Below, piece after piece: positions 8,609-10,269 of a stretch of DNA of 50,198 nucleotides. Both the position numbers and the translations under genes were made by a program. This DNA comes from Micavibrio sp. (GTDB taxonomy: Bacteria > Pseudomonadota > Alphaproteobacteria > Micavibrionales > Micavibrionaceae). The DNA lies in the NCBI GenBank assembly GCA_027075555.1, contig JALTAZ010000059.1, positions 1 to 50,198 on the forward strand, in the 5' to 3' direction. How positions within the stretch are numbered: position 1 is the first letter of the stretch; each line of letters begins with the position of its first letter. The notes under the pieces were generated by a model. It ran no database searches and was not told the DNA's origin. It saw only the letters and a program-made list of their open reading frames with translations.

Positions 8609-9982
8609 TCACATAAGCGCCCTATAACGCGCCCTGCCATAACGACGAGCTACAGCCATTGATTGAAATGCCATAAGTAATAATAACAAAGAACCAATAG
8701 CAAGCCCCCCGCTTAACCCCCAATTCATTAGACCTCTATCAATAATTGCCCCTTGCGTATTATCAGGAAGATACAATATCTGCACTTTATCTCCTCTTTT
8801 GTATGTAGGGTTACTAGAACCAACATTATCTTCAAAACGAATAGATCTGCCATTATTATCCGTGTAATTAACCACAGCATAATAAGTATAGCCTCCACCA
8901 GACCCTCCAGAAGAGCTAGAATAACGACTTTTTAAATCAACAACCTTTCCTGATGTAGATATGCCATTTCGTGTTATATTAAGCATATTTAGACCAGTAA
9001 AATAAGCTCCCCCAGCAAGAGCAAGAACCATAACAAACATAACATAACTAGCAATCATAGAATTTCTTGCCTGAACTTTAACTCGCGCCATAATCTCAGA
9101 ATTATCAAGAACCCTCTCGCCTTTACCTCCCCTAGAATAGGAGCTAGCTACCTCTAACCCTTCTTTTCTAAAATCAGACAAGCCTTTTTTAAATTCTTTA
9201 ACTGAAATTTTACTAATGAATGACCATATTTTATATGAAAGAAAACCAACCCCTGCTAAAACCATAAGAATTGTGAATATATTAAACTCAAACCTTGTTA
9301 ACGCCATATTCATGATAAATATTCCTGGCGTAAGAAAAATCAGACCAAATATGATCATAAAGCGTGAAGGTCGCTTAACATTCTTAGGGTTTTTTTGCGA
9401 CATTAAAAGAGTAATGCGCGTTCCTGGTATTTTATTTAACAAAGAATTTGAGCTAACATCACTTACTATCTGGTTACGATCACCATTGGGCATCTTATAC
9501 TCAAACACAGCCCTATACATTTCATTATAAAAATTATTCTTACTACTTGATAAAGATAGATTGCTATTATTTTTACCTTTTTTATTGAAATAAGATCCCA
9601 ATAATATAAACCCAATAAAAACAAACCCAAACGCAGTAAAGGCAGTTGCAACACCCATATTGTGCCAAAAATCGTCTATTACAAATTCGTTGGGATCTTT
9701 AGGATCGTAGTAAACTCCAATTTTTGTTCCTATACTAAAAGAAGGAGAATTACCGTAGCTAATATTATCCTTAACTTCCCAAGTTTTACCATATTGATCT
9801 GTAAAACGTAGAACCGCCTTATAGCTTGTGCCATTATCACTGCTATAACTACTATCATTACGAATGACCGTAGCCTTTGCATATTTACCATTTTGAGTTA
9901 GACTCAAATAGCTGTACCCCATATAAACACCCATAGCCGAGAATATGAGTGGAAGTCCTATAAATAGAGCCACAATAAGCAC
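8609..9982 (-). CDS. DUF3592-type multi-domain membrane protein (probably the downstream part of one gene with 10024..10269)
   Basis: 457 aa, repeated [TM - A.V......Y.A.V.FTD..G......N.....P.Y..G..V.I.YDP] modules; apparent start is an internal GTG, and the frame remains open upstream through the poly-A region. Confidence 0.75.
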   Translation of the reverse strand: MLIVALFIGLPLIFSAMGVYMGYSYLSLTQNGKYAKATVIRNDSSYSSDNGTSYKAVLRFTDQYGKTWEVKDNISYGNSPSFSIGTKIGVYYDPKDPNEFVIDDFWHNMGVATAFTAFGFVFIGFILLGSYFNKKGKNNSNLSLSSSKNNFYNEMYRAVFEYKMPNGDRNQIVSDVSSNSLLNKIPGTRITLLMSQKNPKNVKRPSRFMIIFGLIFLTPGIFIMNMALTRFEFNIFTILMVLAGVGFLSYKIWSFISKISVKEFKKGLSDFRKEGLEVASSYSRGGKGERVLDNSEIMARVKVQARNSMIASYVMFVMVLALAGGAYFTGLNMLNITRNGISTSGKVVDLKSRYSSSSGGSGGGYTYYAVVNYTDNNGRSIRFEDNVGSSNPTYKRGDKVQILYLPDNTQGAIIDRGLMNWGLSGGLAIGSLLLLLMAFQSMAVARRYGRARYRALM

Positions 9983-10023
9983 AGCAAAAGAAGTTGTTAC
10001 AGGCTCATCCTTAAATTCTGCTG

Positions 10024-10269
10024 TTAATGTTTTTTTGTTTTTTTGTTTTTTTCTTCTTTGCTATATTTTCTACTTGTTCTTGATGCTAATTTTTTATTAT
10101 TTTCCTTTACCCTTACCTCTGTAATTATCCCTTTAATTCTTTTTGCTCTAAGTCGCCAAGCAAGCTCATATCCAGCTAATCCGCCGCCAATCAATATAAA
10201 TACTGACCCCATAAGCATAAGCCCAACCTGATTCCATGCTTCAAATATATTAAAAATAAAATCAAACAT
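10024..10269 (-). CDS. Small membrane ORF; likely the N-terminal part of the DUF3592-type gene, ending in a Lys-rich tail at an A7C repeat
   Basis: 81 aa: one TM (VGLMLMGSVFILIGGGLAGYELAW) then AKRIKGIITEVRVKENNKK...KYSKEEKNKKTKKH*; stop directly after the A7C array. Confidence 0.7.
   Translation of the reverse strand: MFDFIFNIFEAWNQVGLMLMGSVFILIGGGLAGYELAWRLRAKRIKGIITEVRVKENNKKLASRTSRKYSKEEKNKKTKKH
10029..10053 (-). other. Candidate -1 frameshift / phase-variation site: three tandem A7C octamers (coding strand)
   Basis: Coding strand GAA GAA AAA AAC AAA AAA ACA AAA AAA CAT TAA; contains A_AAA_AAC and A_AAA_AAA in the zero-frame phase; -1 frame is continuous with ORF 8609..9982. Confidence 0.6.

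Follow-up and report, generated by a model that had tools for sequence, protein, structure and literature searches.

The window, a stretch of 50,198 nt from a Micavibrio sp. genome (1.97 Mb assembly, 161 contigs), carries two open reading frames that lie between a LysM/M23 peptidase gene on one side and yajC-secDF on the other and that meet at a tandem array of A7C units (Table 1). The shorter, N-terminal ORF begins with an ATG that overlaps the stop codon of the upstream LysM/M23 gene. It encodes the first transmembrane helix, the opening part of the first beta module (AKRIKGIITEVRV) and a linker rich in Lys, and its 3' end reads GAA GAA AAA AAC AAA AAA ACA AAA AAA CAT TAA. The coordinates, frames and stops reported for this locus in a first-pass annotation were confirmed on the minus-strand sequence. 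Both ORFs had also been described there as DUF3592-type. This designation holds for the downstream ORF, which matches the DUF3592 profile (PF12158) in two stretches with an E-value of 5e-22 and 78.7 bits against a gathering cut-off of 25.3, but not for the 81-aa ORF, which gives no match to the same profile.

Table 1. Features at the junction of the two ORFs, in positions of the window.
Feature	Position	Strand	Remarks
N-terminal 81-aa ORF	10024..10269	minus	stop TAA 10026-10024
Downstream open frame, -1 relative to the 81-aa ORF	8609..10060	minus	483 codons, two DUF3592 matches
(A7C)x3 tandem array, site of the frame change	10029..10052	minus	perfect three-copy 8-bp repeat
A_AAA_AAC heptamer, zero-frame X_XXY_YYZ phase	10045..10051	minus	phase forced by array period
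A_AAA_AAA heptamer, zero-frame X_XXY_YYZ phase	10030..10036	minus	phase forced by array period
Possible hairpin	9980..10024	minus	starts 5 nt after the A_AAA_AAA heptamer, a suitable distance

The limits of the break can be set closely. As the last in-frame stop before the downstream frame opens is at 10063-10061 and the zero-frame stop follows the array almost directly, the change of frame is confined to the 34 nt from 10060 to 10027, a stretch dominated by the array, which makes up 24 of them. The 483 codons of the downstream frame contain no stop and no further lesion. This ORF has no credible start of its own, in agreement with the first-pass annotation: the first start codons are GTG at 9982 and GTG at 9973, neither of which is preceded by a Shine-Dalgarno sequence. 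With none at the right distance from either codon, re-initiation at 9982 or 9973 appears unlikely.

The array itself is far from chance. When 3 mismatches were allowed, (A7C)x3 found 0 matches in 100 shuffles, and it occurs at one place in the genome. The sole other A7Cx2 of the genome is intergenic (L158:1501-1516; G000 C100:22245-22260). The array is a tandem repeat within a coding region whose 8-bp unit is not a multiple of 3, and its successive copies occupy phases 1, 0 and 2 for A7 and phases 2, 1 and 0 for A6C. Because three 8-bp units cover all three phases, exactly one A7 and one A6C fall in the slippery phase. The two heptamers that had been singled out as correctly phased are indeed in phase, but automatically so, and heptamer phasing in a three-copy 8-bp array carries no information on recoding.

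Named records related to the window's genome are metagenome-assembled genomes, Micavibrio-like or from other alphaproteobacteria. A homologue search covered 58 genomes, drawn from the genus, the family and the order. The downstream part was found in 22 of the 58, and in every case in which it has its first modules it is continuous with the N-terminal part. In full-length three-module relatives, which comprise four other genomes of the genus and many in the family and order, both parts are joined in one ORF, about 530-580 aa long (31-49% identity). The 81-aa ORF aligns with the N-terminus of single-ORF relatives at up to 62% identity, with E-values down to 7e-20. No split ORF was seen among relatives with the full three-module form and, as judged from these alignments, the split is found only in the window's genome. 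The proposal of one split gene, made in the first-pass annotation, is borne out in that relatives carry both halves in one ORF, and sequence comparison strongly supports it, showing that both ORFs descend from one gene. The alternative of two independent genes was rejected, since in relatives there is a single ORF and the second frame has no credible start. A comparison of the locus in relatives had been suggested as a check on the earlier reading; the genes proved to be fused rather than independent, which supports a split gene but lends no support to recoding.

At the protein level the break falls in a hydrophilic linker that varies in length and sequence among relatives, and in the predicted model of one relative this linker has a pLDDT below 50. 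The A7C array is absent from the linker DNA of the relatives read, where the longest A-runs are 3-7 nt; the array therefore arose in the window's lineage, and the split is not an inherited state. A conserved A-tract in the linker was likewise considered and rejected, one A7 run being present in a single relative (L027) only.

All ten aligned homologues match PF12158. The downstream part of the window gene resembles DUF3592 membrane proteins, from which the group of the window gene differs by having one module nested in another together with a C-terminal module. A fold search with the predicted model of a relative (pLDDT 70, pTM 0.48) returned no PDB match at E <= 0.001, a sequence profile compared with the PDB gave no match, and NCBIfam gave nothing above its cut-offs. 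One paper was found that touches on DUF3592, in passing only.

The order M23 peptidase, DUF3592 gene, yajC, secD, secF is kept in the genus, and the form of the DUF3592 gene differs among its members. Four genomes (G003, G006, G009 and G011) carry the full-length gene. A form about 160 aa shorter, from which one whole module is missing, is present in G004 and G005, G010 retains a stub that reaches a stop after about 50 codons, and no gene lies between M23 and yajC in G001 and G007. Two genomes were left out of this classification, namely G008, whose contig ends 198 bp upstream of yajC, and G002, where the match runs to the contig start inside secD. A tree built on SecD, SecF, YajC, Pcm and M23 groups the genome with the stub and the two genomes without the gene in a single clade. 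The window's genome lies outside this clade and adjoins G002, G008 and G011. Because other members of the genus have shortened, truncated or lost the gene, it is dispensable there, and its natural loss in the window's lineage would therefore be unremarkable.

Several other features of this region were observed. A clean difference between the sister genomes G003 (L004) and G005 (L010) is that a DUF3592 module of about 160 aa is present in one and absent from the other. This variable module sits within another one, at the same linker that is interrupted in the window gene. At the expected end of the DUF3592 gene in G008, where the contig ends, there is a 20-bp inverted repeat (GTTCCATTTAAGAATAATACA ... 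TGTACTATTCTTAAATGAAAC; L036:30-88) that is possibly a mobile-element remnant. Upstream of yajC, a strongly conserved block, CTTGCCTTTggcGTGATTATCTTTATAgTc (window 8580-8550, minus strand), is kept in 11 of 11 aligned genus members (the window with L036, L046-L053 and L055), even where the DUF3592 gene is gone. The block contains TTGCCT-16-TATAGT and looks like the promoter of yajC-secDF or a regulator site.

On balance, we regard it as probable that a recent slipped-strand indel in the lineage-specific A7C array split one DUF3592-type gene. The starting point would be one gene for a multi-module DUF3592 membrane protein. An indel inside (A7C)x3, most simply produced by slipped-strand mispairing during replication, would then have put the second part out of frame in this one lineage only, and the outcome would be an early pseudogene or a decaying or off-phase allele. 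We infer both that the indel is truly in the genome and that replication slippage was its cause. The intact state of the downstream frame implies either a recent event or continued synthesis of some full-length product. Under neutral decay, the probability that this frame remains free of stops is 0.58 at 1% divergence and 0.07 at 5%, and continued production of the protein by slippage would also account for the lack of further lesions.

Frameshifts that are present in one genome only and that have BLASTp and Pfam support have been classed as indels or sequencing errors (PMC3711429). The window gene resembles these GeneTack singletons and young pseudogenes (PMC3711429) in that one indel is found in one genome, homologues are continuous and the downstream part is supported by Pfam. 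It differs from them in that the lesion resides in an unusually clean (A7C)x3 array and is not accompanied by a second lesion. After the indel, we would rank the explanations in the order assembly error, slippage rescue and phase variation.

A sequencing or assembly error, or a mixed-strain consensus in the low-complexity array, would mean that the real gene is a single ORF. The window comes from one of the assembly's 161 contigs, the sole frameshift found coincides with the most repetitive part of the gene, and BLASTp-confirmed singleton frameshifts often turn out to be errors (PMC3711429). We nevertheless consider this explanation rather unlikely, given that 147 A- or T-runs of at least 7 nt in 230 kb of conserved genes are associated with no other true frameshift, which limits the homopolymer error rate to about 2% per run or less, and that the 24-bp array is short enough to be covered by one short read. 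A frameshift survey that used 386 reference ORFs of G009 with hits in 481 kb of the window's genome gave five candidate breaks, and the only convincing one is at this locus. Three of the five are weak candidates. Another (L092) is a spurious antisense frame and not a frameshift; its other strand reads as the start of a gene, presumably that of GMP reductase, which it resembles. Widespread frameshifts in the assembly were thus rejected (one of five candidates convincing in 481 kb), and a general homopolymer problem is unlikely, although a single local error may be present.

Some full-length protein might instead be produced, by chance or under regulation, through -1 ribosomal slippage at A_AAA_AAC or A_AAA_AAA or through slippage of RNA polymerase on the A-runs. 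The in-phase heptamers, the intact downstream frame and the possible hairpin past the second heptamer are each compatible with recoding, and the first-pass annotation had put forward both programmed -1 frameshifting and transcriptional slippage on poly-A. The phasing, however, is forced by the repeat, and we examined how the motif is used in the remainder of the genome. The background set consisted of 230 kb of intact conserved coding sequence of the window's genome (G000; L056-L095 and the window), and expected counts were obtained by shuffling of synonymous codons. These genes carry 116 A-runs and 31 T-runs of at least 7 nt. They contain 30 in-phase copies of A_AAA_AAC and 48 of A_AAA_AAA. 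In the comparison with shuffled codons, in-phase A_AAA_AAC was seen 29 times against 13 expected (z 4.3) and A7 92 times against 71 expected. A-runs of at least 9 nt are rarer than expected (4 versus 8.6). T-runs of at least 7 nt are under-represented in the same coding sequence relative to synonymous shuffles. The enrichment of A_AAA_AAC and the over-representation of A7 indicate that the cell tolerates such sites. Frequent frameshifting at them would predict avoidance, none of which is seen for these motifs; together with the forced phasing, these counts speak against the heptamer as a signal.

In one window the possible hairpin has a z of -1.6, and 13 of 200 shuffled sequences fold as well; in wider or shifted windows z is -0.2 to +0.1 or -0.4. 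No Shine-Dalgarno-like stimulator was found just upstream of the heptamers, where the sequence is AAAATATAGCAAAGAAG, and the site is conserved in no homologue, the relatives having neither the split nor the A7C array. The locus therefore shares with the dnaX type of programmed -1 frameshifting its phased slippery heptamers and a net -1 shift, but its heptamers are A_AAA_AAC and A_AAA_AAA rather than A_AAA_AAG, it lacks the Shine-Dalgarno stimulator and conservation of the site, and its possible hairpin is not significant against shuffles. Programmed -1 frameshifting is not supported, since the phase is forced, the heptamer is enriched in intact genes and neither split nor array is conserved; the motif-based case for it does not hold.

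Slippage by E. coli RNA polymerase needs at least 7 T or more than 7 A (PMC6260861), and in many bacteria selection against A- and T-runs as slippage sites is evident at 9 nt (PMC1088944). The A-runs in the window are A7 interrupted by C and are shorter than the published slippage lengths, which argues against the poly-A proposal. The closest precedent is tssM1 of Citrobacter rodentium, where an A11 run with about 20-25% slippage rescues an interrupted gene (PMC4256274). As in the window, a stop follows soon after an A-rich tract and the C-terminal part is open in another frame. The slippage at tssM1 was measured on A11, whereas the window has C-broken A7 runs. Overall, we find it quite unlikely that either kind of slippage accounts for this locus.

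Reversible switching of the full-length protein through the addition or removal of one A7C unit or one A, as in a phase-variable (contingency) locus, seems to us more doubtful still, although the arithmetic behind this proposal in the first-pass annotation is correct. The perfect tandem array in coding sequence, with a unit that is not a multiple of 3 and no second array of its kind in the genome, would suit such a role, but there are three units only, they are absent from relatives, and the other 8-bp repeat is intergenic, with no sign of a multi-locus system. Least probable of all, and by our estimate very improbable, is a lineage-specific compound slippery site in which (A7C)x3 and the hairpin set the ratio of an 81-residue single-helix protein to the full-length protein.

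These results carry a caution for the reading of slippery motifs, in that a phased heptamer is guaranteed by arithmetic in any three-copy array whose unit length cannot be divided by 3. Normal genes of AT-rich genomes often contain A_AAA_AAC in phase, and such motifs alone do not indicate recoding. If a full-length product were shown, the locus would become a small natural test of short A-run slippage in an AT-rich alphaproteobacterium.
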